From assembly GCA_029254025.1 (NCBI GenBank), contig JAQWYK010000045.1:1-64000 (forward strand): a stretch of DNA of 64,000 nucleotides, read 5' to 3'. Shown in pieces: positions 29,184-33,861 of this stretch (the first letter of the stretch is position 1; every line of letters begins with the position of its first letter). Both the position numbers and the translations under genes were made by a program. Source of the DNA: Crocinitomicaceae bacterium (GTDB taxonomy: Bacteria; Bacteroidota; Bacteroidia; Flavobacteriales_D; Crocinitomicaceae). Below the pieces are notes generated by a model. That model was not told where the DNA came from, ran no database searches, and was given only the letters and a program-made list of their open reading frames with translations.

Positions 29184-30194
29184 TTGAATCAATTCAGAGC
29201 CATAGCCAGTTATTTGAAGTGTTCGACGATTTTTGGGGCAGCATTTTTCTTGTTTTCATCATGTAGTGCTGACGGCGGTACTGGATCTGGTTCCATTCTA
29301 CCAATGGGGCAGATATCATATGATTCGATACATCTATATAATGCGGAAACCGTTAATCTGGGTAGGAAATTGTTTTTCGATAAGCGATTGTCTGTCAATA
29401 ATACAGTCGCATGTGCTTCGTGCCATTTGCCTGCGCTTGCCTTTACTGACGGGCGAAAAAAAGCCGTCGGAATAAATAACAATGCTACTATGAGAAATGC
29501 TCCCACTTTACTAAATGTAGAGTATCAACCTCATTTCATGTTCGATGGTGCCGTTCCTACGCTTGAAATGCAGGCATTAGTACCCCTAAAGGATACGAAC
29601 GAAATGGGGAATGATATTCAGCAATTAATAGAAAAGTTGCGCCATGTCCCAGAGTATCAGCAATTAGCAAAAAGTCTTTACGCAAGGGAGTTTGACGCGT
29701 TCGTGTTGACACGAGCTCTTGGTAGTTTTCAACGTTCTTTAATAAGTCAAAATTCACCCTTCGATCAGTGGTTCTATCATGCTGATGAGCATGCAGTATC
29801 AGGAAGTGTCAAAAATGGGTATCGTATTTTTTCCGATAAATTGTACTGCGCTAGTTGTCACCCTGCCCCGACTTTTACTACTTATGACATTCTAAGTAAT
29901 GGTCGAGATAGTTTATCAAATGATGAAGGACTCTATCGCATCACAGGTCTAACTAAAGACATTGGCAAATTCAAAATTCCAACGCTGAGAAACATAGCAC
30001 TAACTGGACCTTATATGCATGATGGTTCTGTTCAAAGTCTACGGGAAGTTATACACTACTATGCCAAGGGTGGAGATGGGCATCCAAATCAAGATCAGCG
30101 AATAATTTCTTTTGATTTAAGCGATGAGGAGATAAAAGATCTACTGGATTTTTTTGAATCGCTTACAGATACTTCACTTATTACCAGTTATTAA
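29184..30194 (+). CDS. Di-haem cytochrome c peroxidase, MauG family, lipoprotein
   Basis: A 336-residue protein with two CxxCH haem sites (CASCH in ACASCHLPALAF near residue 77, and CASCH in YCASCHPAPTF near residue 225). It also has the MauG/CcpA stretches VNLGRKLFFDKRLSVNN, MRNAPTLLNV, FKIPTLRNIALTGPYMHDGS and LREVIHYYAKGG. The N-terminus (FGAAFFLFSSCS) is a lipoprotein signal, so it should be membrane-anchored in the periplasm and reduce hydrogen peroxide or oxidise a protein substrate. No ATG exists before residue 41, so the start must be TTG at 29184 or TTG at 29214. The sigma-factor gene follows after 167 bases. Confidence 0.9.
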   Translation: MNQFRAIASYLKCSTIFGAAFFLFSSCSADGGTGSGSILPMGQISYDSIHLYNAETVNLGRKLFFDKRLSVNNTVACASCHLPALAFTDGRKKAVGINNNATMRNAPTLLNVEYQPHFMFDGAVPTLEMQALVPLKDTNEMGNDIQQLIEKLRHVPEYQQLAKSLYAREFDAFVLTRALGSFQRSLISQNSPFDQWFYHADEHAVSGSVKNGYRIFSDKLYCASCHPAPTFTTYDILSNGRDSLSNDEGLYRITGLTKDIGKFKIPTLRNIALTGPYMHDGSVQSLREVIHYYAKGGDGHPNQDQRIISFDLSDEEIKDLLDFFESLTDTSLITSY

Positions 30195-30316
30195 ACATCT
30201 AAATAATAGCTGTTTAATGGTAATGTGGTAATAAATGTGAAAAACTTTCGTTTAGAATGGCATAATTTTTATTCGTTTCCTGTAACTATTTCTTGAATAT
30301 TAATTATAATAATAGA

Positions 30317-30336
30317 GTACTGTCTGCAAGCAGTAC
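30317..30336 (+). repeat. Inverted repeat upstream of the ECF sigma gene
   Basis: The arms GTACTG (30317-30322) and CAGTAC (30331-30336) lie 25 bases before the ATG at 30362. It may be a leader hairpin or a binding site. No consensus TAnnTTTG promoter is visible in this 167-base gap, which would suit an alternative sigma factor controlling its own gene. Confidence 0.35.
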
Positions 30337-30361: not shown

Positions 30362-30940
30362 ATGAGTAGAATGAACCCCATATATCATCACACCAATGAA
30401 AAACTCAGGTCTGAGTTGGAGTGGATACAGTTAGCGAAGAGAGATCCAGAGAAGTTCGCACCTCTTTATGAGAAATATCATGAGCAGATTTTTCGATATA
30501 TCTATCAACGGATGGATGACAAAGAATTGGCATTCGATGTGACTTCTCAAGTTTTTTTGAAGGCCATGAACAATCTTCATAAATACGAATATCGGGGTGT
30601 TCCTTTTGGTTCATGGTTATATCGCATTGCAAAAAGCGAATTGTACCAGGCATTTCGTGACAGATCTTCGAAACGGGCTATCAATATTGAAACCGTTCAT
30701 TTGGCAACTTTCATGGATGTTTTTGAAGACGAGGAAAATGAAATCAATAAAAAACGATTACTCAGTTCGATAGCCGAACTAAAAGAAGCAGATGTTCATT
30801 TAATTGAAATGCGCTTTTTCGAGCAACGTCCCTATAAAGAAATGGGGGAGATATTAGGGATTACTGAAAACAATGCAAAAGTGAAAACTTTTCGGGCATT
30901 GGAAAAATTGAAACAACTATTTAATCAAAATAACCGGTAA
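30362..30940 (+). CDS. RNA polymerase sigma factor, ECF type
   Basis: A 192-residue sigma-70 family protein with region 2 (about residues 30-105; YRYIYQRMDDKELAFDVTSQ and PFGSWLYRIAKSEL) and region 4 helix-turn-helix (about 135-190; VHLIEMRFFEQRPYKEMGEI then TENNAKVKTFRALEKLKQL). There is no region 1 or 3, as in extracytoplasmic-function sigma factors. The stop overlaps the start of the next gene by one base (TAATG). That gene encodes a membrane protein with a short cytoplasmic head and a large outer part, which is the arrangement of an anti-sigma or sensor partner. Confidence 0.9.
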   Translation: MSRMNPIYHHTNEKLRSELEWIQLAKRDPEKFAPLYEKYHEQIFRYIYQRMDDKELAFDVTSQVFLKAMNNLHKYEYRGVPFGSWLYRIAKSELYQAFRDRSSKRAINIETVHLATFMDVFEDEENEINKKRLLSSIAELKEADVHLIEMRFFEQRPYKEMGEILGITENNAKVKTFRALEKLKQLFNQNNR

Positions 30941-32631
30941 TGAAAAACCGCAAAATAATTTTAGACAGAGGACCTATTTCTTCACAAGAAATAGCCGAAC
31001 GACAAGATTTTGACAAATTATTAAAGTCCTTTAAAGCCCCCCAAAACCCATATTGGAAGTCGATATGGTTTTGGGGGACTACCGGTGTAGCTACCCTAGG
31101 TCTTTTCCTTTTGACAAAACAATTTTTAACAGAAAACGAAACGCTAAAAGAAACATTACATGAAGAGAACATTACTTTAGCCTTAGATGGCCTTCCTCAA
31201 GATACTGAATGCATTAAGTCTCCGGTGGCTTCAGTGGAGATACCTTTTGTAAGTCATGAAATCGACCCCTCAATCGATAATGAAATTATCCTTGAAAATG
31301 GAACTTCAATTTCCATTAAAGCGGGTTCAATTGAAACTATATCATCAGGTCGTGTGGTGATTAAAACGCGCGTATTTGAAGATAAAACAACTGCTTTTTT
31401 GGCTGGTGTCCCAATGGATTTCAAAAATAGTTCATTCGAATCTGCTGGTATGATTGAGATTCGCGGAGAGCAAGAGGGAATGGAGGTTTTTGTCCGTGCC
31501 GATCAGCCGATAGAAGTAGATTTAAAGCTATACAAGGACTATAATGGATTTGATTTCTACGCACTAGATGACCAATCCGGGAAATGGAGTACGTATCCTT
31601 GCGAGTTTTTAGGAGGAAAGTTGGATGAAGTAACAGCTCTTTCAGAAACAGATAAAAAGAAGACTGTACTTACGAATGAAATTCAATCAATTACTACTCA
31701 AATTAGTGAAAAGGAAAACGATTTGCTGGAGGCACCTCTTCCGCGCAAAGAAACGTATTATTTACCCAAAAACGAGCAATATATCTTTACTTTAGATTAC
31801 AATAAACGCGATTTCCCAGAGCTAGCTGCTCTTGGGCCAATTAATTTTGAGGCATACCCCAATCAAGCGAATTACGAGAACATTTTTAAAAAATCTTGGT
31901 CCAATTTTACAATTGAGGAAGTTGAAGGGAAGTATAGCGTTACGTTTTCAGATAAACTAGGAGAGGAATCCCTTAAGGTTCGACCAATTGTAACTGGCAT
32001 TCGCTTAGAGGAAGCTATACAAGAATATAATGAAGCCAAACAGGATGCTCAAGCGAAGCGTGATCTCATTGAGGCAGAAAGAGAGCAGTTGGTCAATCGA
32101 CGAGCGGAAAAAAATATCGAGCTACAACGTTATATTGCGGATATGGAAAAGAGATTCAATGCATCTAATGTGGATTATCTTGAGGCCAAGAAAATTCTCG
32201 AGGCTAAAGAACAGCGTAAAGACCGTTTTGTTGGTGAAATATTAACTGCTGCTTCAGCAAAGTTTCGAACTACTCAGTTTGGAGTCTTCAATTGCGATAA
32301 GCCAGTTGGTTATCCCAAACCCTTTGAGAACTTCATCCGCTTTGAAATTGCTGGAAATGTCATTTCCCCTAAATCAGTGTATGTCTTTGATCTGGATAAG
32401 GATGTGCGTTATCAGTTTGGTTCTTTGTCAAATCCGTTGACCTCATTTGGTATGAATGGAAATGAAAATGTGGTAATGATTGTTCTTGAAAATAACGAAG
32501 TGGCATATGCTCATACTTCCAAGGCAGGTGTAAAACAATCAGGTAGAATTCAACTCAATGTGATACCCGCTGAGAAAGTAACTGAGGAAAGGATAAAAAC
32601 AATTCTAAATGAGGAACGGGTATCTGCTTAG
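30940..32631 (+). CDS. Single-pass membrane protein, candidate sigma-factor partner
   Basis: A 563-residue protein with a ~40-residue cytoplasmic head, one membrane helix (about residues 43-62, WFWGTTGVATLGLFLLT) and a large outer part. The first outer domain (about 110-235) is beta-rich (GTSISIKAGSIETISSGRVV), then comes a mixed domain, then a long coiled coil (about 355-430, EAIQEYNEAKQDAQAKRDLI onward) and a C-terminal domain (about 435-545) with CDKPVGYP. Its coupling to the sigma gene by a one-base overlap makes it a candidate anti-sigma factor or sensor, but the head shows no ZAS cysteine-histidine motif. Family not recognised. Confidence 0.7.
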   Translation: MKNRKIILDRGPISSQEIAERQDFDKLLKSFKAPQNPYWKSIWFWGTTGVATLGLFLLTKQFLTENETLKETLHEENITLALDGLPQDTECIKSPVASVEIPFVSHEIDPSIDNEIILENGTSISIKAGSIETISSGRVVIKTRVFEDKTTAFLAGVPMDFKNSSFESAGMIEIRGEQEGMEVFVRADQPIEVDLKLYKDYNGFDFYALDDQSGKWSTYPCEFLGGKLDEVTALSETDKKKTVLTNEIQSITTQISEKENDLLEAPLPRKETYYLPKNEQYIFTLDYNKRDFPELAALGPINFEAYPNQANYENIFKKSWSNFTIEEVEGKYSVTFSDKLGEESLKVRPIVTGIRLEEAIQEYNEAKQDAQAKRDLIEAEREQLVNRRAEKNIELQRYIADMEKRFNASNVDYLEAKKILEAKEQRKDRFVGEILTAASAKFRTTQFGVFNCDKPVGYPKPFENFIRFEIAGNVISPKSVYVFDLDKDVRYQFGSLSNPLTSFGMNGNENVVMIVLENNEVAYAHTSKAGVKQSGRIQLNVIPAEKVTEERIKTILNEERVSA

Positions 32632-33019
32632 CGCGTTTGTCTTTGCTCTTATTCCGATGGTGTGCAGCCAAAATCCGCGGGTTGTTCGTATTGAAAAAGA
32701 ATGGACAGAAATGGATTTTCATCCACAAATTGTAGGTTACTTCAATGGGCGCATTCCTGCTGAAGTGATTTGCGACGTTCAAGGGCTGACGACAAATGTA
32801 GGGTATCGGATTCTTACCTATGATGTTGTTTATTTTGATGGTAAATTAACAGTCGAAGCTCATGTGGTAGGGAATGCCATTCCAGATACAATTTGCGCGA
32901 TATTTCAATCTTTTGGTAGTAATTCTGAAATATTCTTTACGAATATCAAAGCGATGGATTTAGATGGTCGTATCACGCACCTTTCTCCGCTAAAGCTAAT
33001 TGCTGTTAAAGAAGATTAA
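32609..33019 (+). CDS. Small secreted protein, GldM C-terminal-like
   Basis: A 136-residue protein with a signal peptide (cleavage near VCSQ), the rest all beta strands (GRIPAEVICDVQGLTTNVGY, YFDGKLTVEAHVVG, FFTNIKAMDLDGRITHLSPL). The pattern resembles the C-terminal domain of gliding protein GldM, but this is only a shape resemblance. It overlaps the upstream gene by 23 bases, which indicates coupled translation with the sigma-linked membrane protein. It is probably periplasmic or surface-located. Function unknown. Confidence 0.7.
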   Translation: MRNGYLLSAFVFALIPMVCSQNPRVVRIEKEWTEMDFHPQIVGYFNGRIPAEVICDVQGLTTNVGYRILTYDVVYFDGKLTVEAHVVGNAIPDTICAIFQSFGSNSEIFFTNIKAMDLDGRITHLSPLKLIAVKED

Positions 33020-33066
33020 TTCGGCTTTTTTACACTAGAACGTTTCAGTTTTTGTAAATTCGCCGT

Positions 33067-33861
33067 ATGAAAGCACTTGTATTAGTTTTTTGTGTTGGCT
33101 GCATCAATTCGTTGTGGGGTCAAGTGCCATTGGTCTATGAAACGTTCGATGGAGGGATTCCAACAGACTGGTCACTAATCAATAATGATGGTAATACACC
33201 TCATCCAGATGTATCAGAATACACTGATGCTTGGATTGTTGTAGCTGACCCAGATGATGCATTGAACAAAGTTGTCTCCAGTACTTCTTACTTTCAGCCA
33301 GTAGATCGAGCAGACCGCTGGTTGATTACACCGAATGTTACTTTGGGTGGAAGTGGAAATTTTATATCTTGGTATGGTAAATCGCATGACCCTTCATTTC
33401 CTGACTCTTATAAAGTCCTAATTTCTAATTCTGGGACGAATAGTAGTGATTTCATGGATACGTTAATAGTGGTTACGAATGAATCTCCTGATTGGACGTT
33501 TCATCAACTTGAAATTGAGCAGTTTGCCAATGAAAACGTTCATGTCGCATTTGTACTTACAACATTCAATGGATTTAAGTTATACCTTGATAGTATTGAC
33601 TTGCGCAAAGAGGATCCTCTATTCTTGCCAAATAATATGGCAAACTATGAGGTGAATCTATTTCCTAATCCAGCAAAAGATCATATTTCTATCCATGGAG
33701 AAGGAATTCACTCGGTAAATTGCCTTTCTGCTGATGGGAAACATGTGTTTGCTGTTCACTCACTAAATGATATCGACGTATCGACACTTCCTTCTGGAAT
33801 TTATGTGTTGATTATTGAACACAATCAAGGAGTCTTGCGCAAGAAATTGATAAAACAATAG
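33067..33861 (+). CDS. Choice-of-anchor J domain protein with T9SS sorting domain
   Basis: A 264-residue protein with a signal peptide (to SLWGQ) and a jelly-roll domain typical of choice-of-anchor J or cleaved-adhesin proteins (about residues 22-180; YETFDGGIPTDWSLINNDGN, RWLITPNVTLGG and FNGFKLYLDSIDL). A T9SS C-terminal domain follows (about 192-264; VNLFPNPAKDHISIHG, GIYVLIIEHNQG). It should be exported across the outer membrane, acting in adhesion or ligand binding. It starts 47 bases after the preceding gene and may belong to the sigma-factor operon, which would place a surface protein at the end of that unit. Confidence 0.85.
   Translation: MKALVLVFCVGCINSLWGQVPLVYETFDGGIPTDWSLINNDGNTPHPDVSEYTDAWIVVADPDDALNKVVSSTSYFQPVDRADRWLITPNVTLGGSGNFISWYGKSHDPSFPDSYKVLISNSGTNSSDFMDTLIVVTNESPDWTFHQLEIEQFANENVHVAFVLTTFNGFKLYLDSIDLRKEDPLFLPNNMANYEVNLFPNPAKDHISIHGEGIHSVNCLSADGKHVFAVHSLNDIDVSTLPSGIYVLIIEHNQGVLRKKLIKQ

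Follow-up and report, generated by a model that had tools for sequence, protein, structure and literature searches.

The question raised by this locus is how an extracytoplasmic function (ECF) sigma factor is held in check when the membrane protein encoded directly behind it carries no zinc anti-sigma motif, and whether the two are connected with the type IX secretion system (T9SS). The locus lies at positions 30,362 to 33,861 of a 64,000-nucleotide stretch from a Crocinitomicaceae bacterium (assembly GCA_029254025.1, contig JAQWYK010000045.1). The whole stretch is referred to as the window, and coordinates refer to it unless another locus is named. The analysis favors, with a probability of roughly 0.55, a sigma/anti-sigma switch of the ECF type that regulates itself and is linked to the T9SS/gliding machinery in a group of Flavobacteriales. 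The case for this reading rests mainly on the pairing of the sigma gene with a short segment of the membrane protein and on a domain that resembles domain D4 of GldM and PorM. The four genes of the unit are as follows.

30362..30940, + strand: ECF sigma factor gene, 192 aa, with sigma2 and sigma4 regions (Pfam PF04542, 1e-13; PF08281, 4e-9; ECF sigma structures matched)
30940..32631, + strand: gene for a 563-aa membrane protein, the proposed anti-sigma factor in its long form (from relatives, loci, and conserved blocks)
32609..33019, + strand: gene for a 136-aa secreted protein with a GldM/PorM D4-like domain at residues ~40-133 (from profiles, a model, and Foldseek)
33067..33861, + strand: T9SS type A cargo gene, 264 aa, with a choice-of-anchor J domain and a sorting domain (Pfam/NCBIfam; few loci have this neighbor)

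The tight layout described in an earlier note on this DNA is reproduced exactly by the list of open reading frames (ORFs), with a 1-base overlap, a 23-base overlap, and a 47-base gap. The sigma gene qualifies as an ECF gene: PF04542, PF08281/PF04545, and TIGR02937 are matched above cut-off, and only the sigma2 and sigma4 regions are present. The fourth gene matches Cleaved_Adhesin of Pfam and the T9SS domain Por_Secre_tail. A 96%-identical relative is found in a Crocinitomicaceae metagenome-assembled genome; the family belongs to the Flavobacteriales.

The sigma gene and its membrane protein partner

The family to which the window belongs was sampled for co-occurrence, with 150 genomes drawn from a larger group. 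The 563-aa protein is matched somewhere along its length in 118 of these genomes. Among 127 sigma orthologues with identities of 50% or more, 101 have the N-terminal segment of this protein encoded directly downstream on the same strand; this count covers the entered rows of the listed matches, in which four listed rows of 40-41% identity were left out and the list itself was truncated among its weakest matches. Matches to the segment profile adjoin an entered sigma factor in 104 of 117 cases. The other 13 consist of ten partial matches to the membrane-helix end and three full matches, one of which starts 110 bases from a contig start (G003) and two of which occur in genomes with the sigma gene cut at the end of another contig (G104 and G036). 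A close sigma relative is present at 32 of the 33 fetched family loci with the segment (L040-L072), and the exception (L059) starts at a contig end.

The same arrangement appears at greater distances. A diverged copy of the segment follows three distant sigma paralogues (38-41% identity) among 19 of the 23 that were listed (38-44%), which is hard to explain unless both proteins work together. Outside the family, 249 genomes of the order were searched and 44 matches were listed, of which 20, mostly the stronger ones, were fetched. A sigma gene belonging to this family (E about 1e-70 to 1e-89) overlaps the membrane protein gene or lies no more than 20 bases upstream of it in all 20 of these loci. 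A sample of the phylum (395 genomes) gave segment matches at E <= 1e-4 in eight genomes, and a genuine segment in an open frame was found in only two of them, the genome of the window and that of one other member of its family. Five of the remaining matches cover the membrane-helix end only, and the last is weak, spanning 5-39 of the model in a frame interrupted by stops. These results support a conserved, zinc-free sigma/anti-sigma-like pair. The mirror-tree correlation of sigma factor and segment (r 0.72; 0 of 200 permutations) is expected from shared descent and is not counted as evidence of binding.

The 563-aa protein is divided into the following parts.

30940..31059, + strand: cytosolic N-terminal segment, residues 1-40, a proposed miniature anti-sigma domain (30-row alignment, model)
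31057..31119, + strand: single membrane helix, about residues 40-60 (hydropathy maximum 1.30; helix in the model)
31225..31593, + strand: periplasmic region, residues ~96-218 (partial matches and a conserved block)
31987..32229, + strand: coiled-coil-like stretch, residues ~350-430 (sequence by eye)
32245..32574, + strand: conserved C-terminal block, residues ~436-545 (invariant F442, G448, N451, D453, P459)

No Pfam family, FecR domain included, matches this protein at E <= 1, and NCBIfam returns only noise below cut-off. The profile of the protein yields only chance-level matches in the PDB (ribosomal bS21, SPT6, and coiled coils; E >= 0.2). An explanation of the gene by family search was abandoned on these results. 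The absence of a zinc anti-sigma motif, as noticed earlier, holds: HxxxCxxC is unmatched in the 563-aa protein, residues 1-45 contain neither Cys nor His, and the first 38 residues are free of Cys in all 30 alignment rows. Mean hydropathy exceeds 1.0 only for 19-residue spans that start at residues 40-42. The same 30 rows share an invariant F24, F44, G46, and G49. The ~60 sigma-proximal residues are constant, with the consensus NxKxNLDRxxxSSExIxxRQNFxxVL followed by WFxGxxGLA.

The outer part is modular and ranges from next to nothing, through a fused beta domain, to a module of ~500 residues with a separate beta gene. The partners in the 104 adjacent pairs comprise 27 long forms (frame of at least 430 aa), 42 forms of 220-345 aa, and 35 forms of at most 115 aa, some frames being shortened by contig ends. 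The smallest are open frames of 57-68 aa, which hold little beyond the cytosolic segment and the helix. The long outer part described in the earlier note is therefore not a general trait, with 77 of the 104 pairs at 345 aa or below, contig-end truncations included. At all 20 long-form loci that were fetched (L040-L059), the next gene is a small beta gene of its own, whereas 11 of the 12 mid-size forms fetched carry the same beta domain as a C-terminal fusion to the membrane protein, L072 being the exception. This comparison is the most informative one: a gene that stands alone in the window forms, in other genomes, the outer end of the membrane protein itself.

Two further observations concern the membrane protein. 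The region at residues ~96-218 is also found in proteins of ~360-500 aa that are not part of a sigma pair (L073-L079); it matches no Pfam family in the proteins scanned, L073 being the one scanned from this group. At L167 (4469-6207), the membrane protein gene is in three pieces in different frames, from inactivation or assembly errors, and the sigma gene is intact.

The complex of the ~40 N-terminal residues with the sigma factor, a prediction proposed in the earlier note, was modeled from natural gene pairs. The two genes share a reading frame in 23 of 89 pairs checked; 22 chains were aligned with the intervening stops read as serine, and the first of these was modeled with AlphaFold2 (307 residues), the partners being joined through an artificial linker. 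The mean pLDDT is 78. Values for ten-residue blocks are 80-95 in the sigma core and 32-40 in the linker, and those of the segment are 55 (residues 231-240), 87, 91, 83, and 74. Only two strands appear, at 104-108 in the sigma2-sigma4 linker (RTVNV in the model; RAINI in the window) and at 238-242 in the N terminus of the membrane protein, and they must therefore pair with each other. The predicted strand of the segment is followed by helices at 249-253 and 258-268, ahead of the membrane helix. Foldseek returns ECF sigma factors from sigma/anti-sigma complexes for this model, including CnrH of 4cxf. An alignment that combined fused rows with rows of the sigma factor or the membrane protein alone was misaligned and was dropped.

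A class I anti-sigma domain has at least 50 residues (according to an excerpt of PMC7406223), and the cytosolic segment of ~40 residues is shorter than this limit. The missing HxxxCxxC sets the protein apart from the zinc-binding members of class I (ZAS) as well. A cytosolic segment of fewer than 50 residues followed by one membrane helix has the length and topology of class II (CnrY-like) anti-sigma factors. The best reading of the modeled segment is a miniature class II-like anti-sigma domain, which would bind and sequester the sigma factor.

Several properties of the model and of the protein weigh against this assignment. The pTM of the complex is 0.69, the linker is artificial, and no interface error was returned. 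The strand of the segment straddles the blocks with pLDDT of 55 and 87. The hydropathy of the membrane helix in the 563-aa protein is modest.

The D4-like domain and the T9SS-related neighbors

The 136-aa protein is, by profile and predicted structure, a GldM/PorM D4-like domain. The alignment of this beta family (A1, 28 rows) was built without the near-duplicates L040, L049, and L051, the contig-edge locus L042, and L072, which has no match. A search of 177,635 PDB sequences with the A1 profile places the PorM entries 6ey5, 6ey6, and 7cmg at ranks 1-3 (E 0.011-0.026). Seven sequences in all are returned at E <= 10; besides PorM these include two chains of Cas7 (0.69 and 0.71) and two of GldM (0.74 and 0.75). 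Direct comparison of A1 with the GldM D4 of relatives using hhalign gives 97.6% over 80 columns, with an E-value that applies to a single comparison. The controls with the same query give 1.8% (reversed), 1.0% and 0.9% (two regions of the membrane protein), and 0.3% (an unrelated small secreted family), and all 20 column shuffles remain at or below 0.7%. A second alignment (A8, 32 rows) gives 97.9%, with controls up to 3.5%.

The structural comparison leads to the same family. The AlphaFold2 model of the 136-aa protein has a pLDDT of 86, and its Foldseek ranks 1-7 are PorM and GldM structures, with TM scores to the query of 0.51-0.63 and E from 5e-5 to 5e-3. A monobody comes next, at E 0.037. 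A generic Ig/FN3 domain was rejected on these ranks and on the hhalign controls. Taken one by one, 9 of the 28 members match the Pfam family GldM_4th at E <= 1, the best at 4e-6, and four match the NCBIfam GldM model (best E 0.01). Chance was rejected as the source of the weak Pfam matches, with HTH_NPRL3 matching 2 of the 28 members and other families 1 each.

Two results count against the domain assignment. In the PDB profile search, the GldM chains come only after the two Cas7 chains, which follow PorM directly. The window protein's own match to GldM_4th is weak (E 0.036-0.058) and below the Pfam cut-off, and it is outranked by HTH_NPRL3 (E 0.004), an unrelated chance match. The protein is not a complete GldM or PorM: the domain is either a stand-alone protein of 136 aa or a fused domain, and the membrane helix that sits in GldL/PorL and the full D1-D4 arm are missing. 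A separate 569-aa frame with a GldM C-terminal domain is present in the window's genome. Two cysteines of the D4-like domain (window 32675-33013) are both present in 17 of the 28 members and both missing in 11, never singly, and this all-or-none pattern suggests a probable disulfide.

T9SS-type genes lie beside several related units. At L113 (1956-6043), a paralogous sigma gene and a 66-aa segment are followed by PorP/SprF, above cut-off, and by a PorE-like OmpA protein, below it. At L158 (1393-5577), in another family of the order, the sigma gene and an anti-sigma-like gene are accompanied by a GldK-like gene (E 6e-27) and a GldM_4th-like gene (E 2.5e-4), and the unit at L175 is followed by a gene for a GldM_4th-like protein (E 0.0017); the last three matches are below cut-off. 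With the profile built here, D4-like genes are found downstream at 7 of the 20 out-of-family loci, L175 not being among them. The links at L113, L158, and L175 are firmer than the one provided by a PorG-like barrel.

This barrel, a family of 300-400 aa encoded downstream in many relatives of the unit, was identified by a sequence motif at 38 of 60 loci scanned (39 copies, 27 rows aligned), seven of the 60 (L073-L079) not being sigma loci. Five members match the NCBIfam model for PorG (NF052316) at E 1e-14 to 1e-24. The scores of these five proteins are only 54.6-87.3 bits at a cut-off of 130, and none of the 27 rows has a Cys in the last 40 residues; a cysteine in the periplasmic C-tail is a conserved feature of PorG (according to an excerpt of PMC12635249). 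PorG itself was ruled out for the barrel on these two grounds. The PorG model also matches one of 14 control genomes, that of E. coli, and in most relatives it matches more than one protein; this result and the missing cysteine make the barrel at most distantly PorG-like. No PorG-like barrel adjoins the unit in the window. PorG above cut-off is encoded elsewhere in the window's genome and, in all, in 36 of 39 genomes searched.

The cargo gene is not a conserved part of the unit, as which the earlier note had counted it: a relative adjoins the unit at only 4 of the 33 family loci. Another cargo relative lies, by eye, beside a partner-less sigma orthologue (L101). The proposed co-occurrence of four genes is hence retained for the sigma factor, the membrane protein, and, after the long form, the beta gene. 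The suggested control of surface-protein export fares similarly, in that a link is indicated by the D4-like domain and by the PorP, GldK-like, and distantly PorG-like neighbors but not by the unconserved cargo. Upstream of the sigma gene, a MauG/MbnH-like di-haem gene recurs (window 29184-30194; L040, L041, L050, L061, L063, L066, L067, and L070).

Promoter-like site and leader hairpin

Two elements upstream of the sigma gene, a promoter and a covarying 5'-leader hairpin, are new here.

30281..30307, + strand: promoter-like site TGTAAC-N17-TTAT (pattern kept upstream of sigma orthologues)
30317..30336, + strand: 5'-leader hairpin GTACTG-TCTGCAAG-CAGTAC (covariation on 27 aligned leaders)

The earlier note had reported that no consensus promoter precedes the unit and that this would fit autoregulation. 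Autoregulation is likely from the upstream sequences, but a promoter-like site is present. The pattern GTAAC-N17-TTAT occurs in 22 of 50 distinct sigma-upstream regions, and the best comparable gapped motif occurs 4-6 times in five letter-shuffled sets; the 50 regions share descent, and the shuffles do not copy that kinship. The site is probably recognized by the sigma factor encoded in the unit itself. A wider regulon receives less support from the counts, the pattern being unenriched genome-wide (61 matches in 10 genomes and 71 in the reversed control). Four orthologous pairs of non-sigma genes recur behind the pattern across species (28 of 30 returned loci were readable). They encode an OmpA-like protein, a protein of 101-102 aa that is barely more than a T9SS sorting domain, a secreted protein of 118-123 aa, and a protein that matches a cysteine-proteinase fold. 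As a single genus (g10) accounts for three of these four pairs, the recurrence is only suggestive of a small regulon of envelope genes.

A hairpin of at least four pairs with the loop NCTGCAAG or NCTCCAAG is located downstream of the promoter site in 31 of the 50 leaders, and its conserved loop is (N)CTGCAAG. The leader matches number 33, of which 27 were aligned; the near-duplicates L051, L065, L035, and L148 were omitted, as was a second match without a stem in each of L114 and L116. Compensatory changes are found in all six pairs, and 94.4% of the cells pair. The covariation score is 0.733, compared with 0.236 for shuffled alignments (0 of 500) and at most 0.191 when the stem is slid. When 60 family genomes were searched with a covariance model, 34 of them gave a total of 37 matches at E <= 0.1. 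The 19 matches below E 1e-3 are, without exception, directly upstream of a sigma gene, and they include genomes that were not used in model building (G036, G019, G006, G047, and G029). The 18 weaker matches are divided into 6 upstream of a sigma gene and 12 elsewhere, the latter being in the range expected by chance at the threshold. Rfam assigns no family to the leader and returns two chance matches below gathering. The hairpin starts at or beside the transcription start deduced from the promoter, and from this position it may shield the transcript or serve as a binding site for a regulator.

Possible mechanism, competing readings, and known systems

In the favored reading of an autoregulated switch tied to the T9SS, the ~40 N-terminal residues of the membrane protein would contribute a beta strand that pairs with the sigma2-sigma4 linker, a short helix of the segment or two would pack on the sigma factor, and the segment would hold the sigma factor inactive at the inner membrane. 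A modular sensor would face the periplasm, as a long module plus a separate secreted D4-like protein in the window and as a fused D4-like domain in other genera. Domain D4 of PorM contacts PorN of the T9SS ring (according to excerpts of PMC12421860 and PMC12635249). Since PorM docks on PorN through D4, the most economical assumption is that the D4-like domain of the sensor would engage the ring/track, the motor, or its clients. A changed engagement, with the machine missing, stalled, or overloaded, would release the sigma factor, which would transcribe its own operon from TGTAAC-N17-TTAT together with a small set of envelope genes, and the leader hairpin would provide further control on the messenger. 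The unit thereby probably senses the state of the T9SS. This link may apply to only part of the family: 35 of the 104 partners have little periplasmic part and L072 has no D4 match, so that sensing based on D4 cannot be universal.

A more specific version of this mechanism is considered tentative and somewhat unlikely. The anti-sigma protein would have captured the tip of the motor arm and would compete with, or ride, the GldKN ring/track instead of GldM. Occupancy or movement of the machine would then be read by the sigma factor, which would make more machine parts, and the operon-specific hairpin would act as a brake at the RNA level. A doubtful but credible alternative retains the genuine sigma/anti-sigma pair and regards the D4-like domain as a reused Ig-like fold in a general envelope-stress or ligand sensor, with a function unrelated to the T9SS. 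The 35 short partners, the different outer module of the long forms, the promoter pattern ahead of OmpA-like and other secreted proteins, and the absence of the PorG C-tail cysteine from the neighboring barrel would all suit such a sensor. The specificity of the domain match for PorM/GldM, with the monobody as the next structure, and the recurrence of T9SS-type genes at related units argue against it.

It is improbable that the membrane protein is merely a co-transcribed envelope protein of the regulon with no anti-sigma activity, the sigma factor being controlled by its own transcription or by the leader hairpin. This explanation draws on the brevity of the cytosolic part, on the conserved hairpin near the transcript start, and on the sigma orthologues that persist without a recognized partner (up to 26 of 127). 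The last of these show that the pair is not obligatory. The earlier note had named sigma orthologues without this neighbor as a result that would speak against its proposal; such orthologues exist, and this objection holds in part. At least two of the partner-less loci are at a contig end (G104 and G036), and one of 15 others fetched (L108) has a downstream ORF of 77 aa that is segment-like by eye and gives no profile hit. This ORF (L108, 2636-2869) has no membrane helix and is a possible soluble remnant. A mere bystander role is difficult to reconcile with conservation that covers precisely the cytosolic segment and the helix, down to the frames of 57-68 aa, and with the predicted pairing of segment and sigma factor. 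A four-gene system that controls surface-protein export and includes the adjacent T9SS cargo is very improbable. The tight spacing of the genes, the four loci with an adjacent cargo relative, and the one seen beside the partner-less sigma gene are in its favor, but no cargo relative was found at the other 29 of the 33 loci, and the cargo is therefore at most a lineage-specific target.

The switch resembles several known systems in part. The FecI/FecR-type pairs of Bacteroidota consist of an ECF sigma factor and a single-pass partner, as does this unit. The membrane protein of the unit differs from FecR in having no Pfam domain at all. The class II pair CnrH/CnrY of Cupriavidus likewise combines an ECF sigma factor with a partner that has no zinc motif, and CnrY, like the protein described here, has only a very short cytosolic part ahead of a single membrane helix. 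The predicted complex contains an added beta strand, whereas two helices are given for CnrY (in an excerpt of PMC7406223). The outer part and the phylum are also different, and no sequence relationship turned up, no dedicated test having been made. Domain D4 of GldM and PorM agrees in fold and profile with the 136-aa protein and with the domain at the C terminus of the fused anti-sigma forms, but the domain of the unit is without the D1-D3 arm and is either stand-alone and secreted or fused to an anti-sigma anchor.

Precedents for ECF-type control of T9SS genes are provided by two systems. In PorXY-SigP of Porphyromonas gingivalis, an ECF sigma factor governs T9SS genes; SigP differs in being activated through binding of PorX, and no membrane anti-sigma factor with a motor-like domain is described in the available part of the source (PMC7712824). 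In F. psychrophilum, ECF-type SM6 promoters drive a homologue of PG0189 (PorG), GldN, PorU, and a sigma/anti-sigma pair, THC0290_1774/1773, which is thus similar to the present pair in its ECF-type promoter (according to an excerpt of PMC9723704). The available parts of PMC7712824 and PMC9723704 describe no D4-bearing anti-sigma protein of this kind. Searches of the open full-text literature turned up nothing that joins GldM with anti-sigma factors or Crocinitomicaceae with ECF sigma factors, subscription journals being largely uncovered.

A class I anti-sigma domain is associated with only 6% of Bacteroidetes ECF sigma factors (according to an excerpt of PMC7406223). The unit described here is one candidate answer to how the remaining ones are held in check, in the form of a membrane-tethered segment of ~40 residues that Pfam and NCBIfam did not recognize in the few proteins scanned. 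If the motor-tip capture is true, the unit would be a mechanical gauge built from a motor part. It offers a testable coupling of gene expression to the state of the T9SS/gliding machine, through a relative of the part of the motor that touches the ring.

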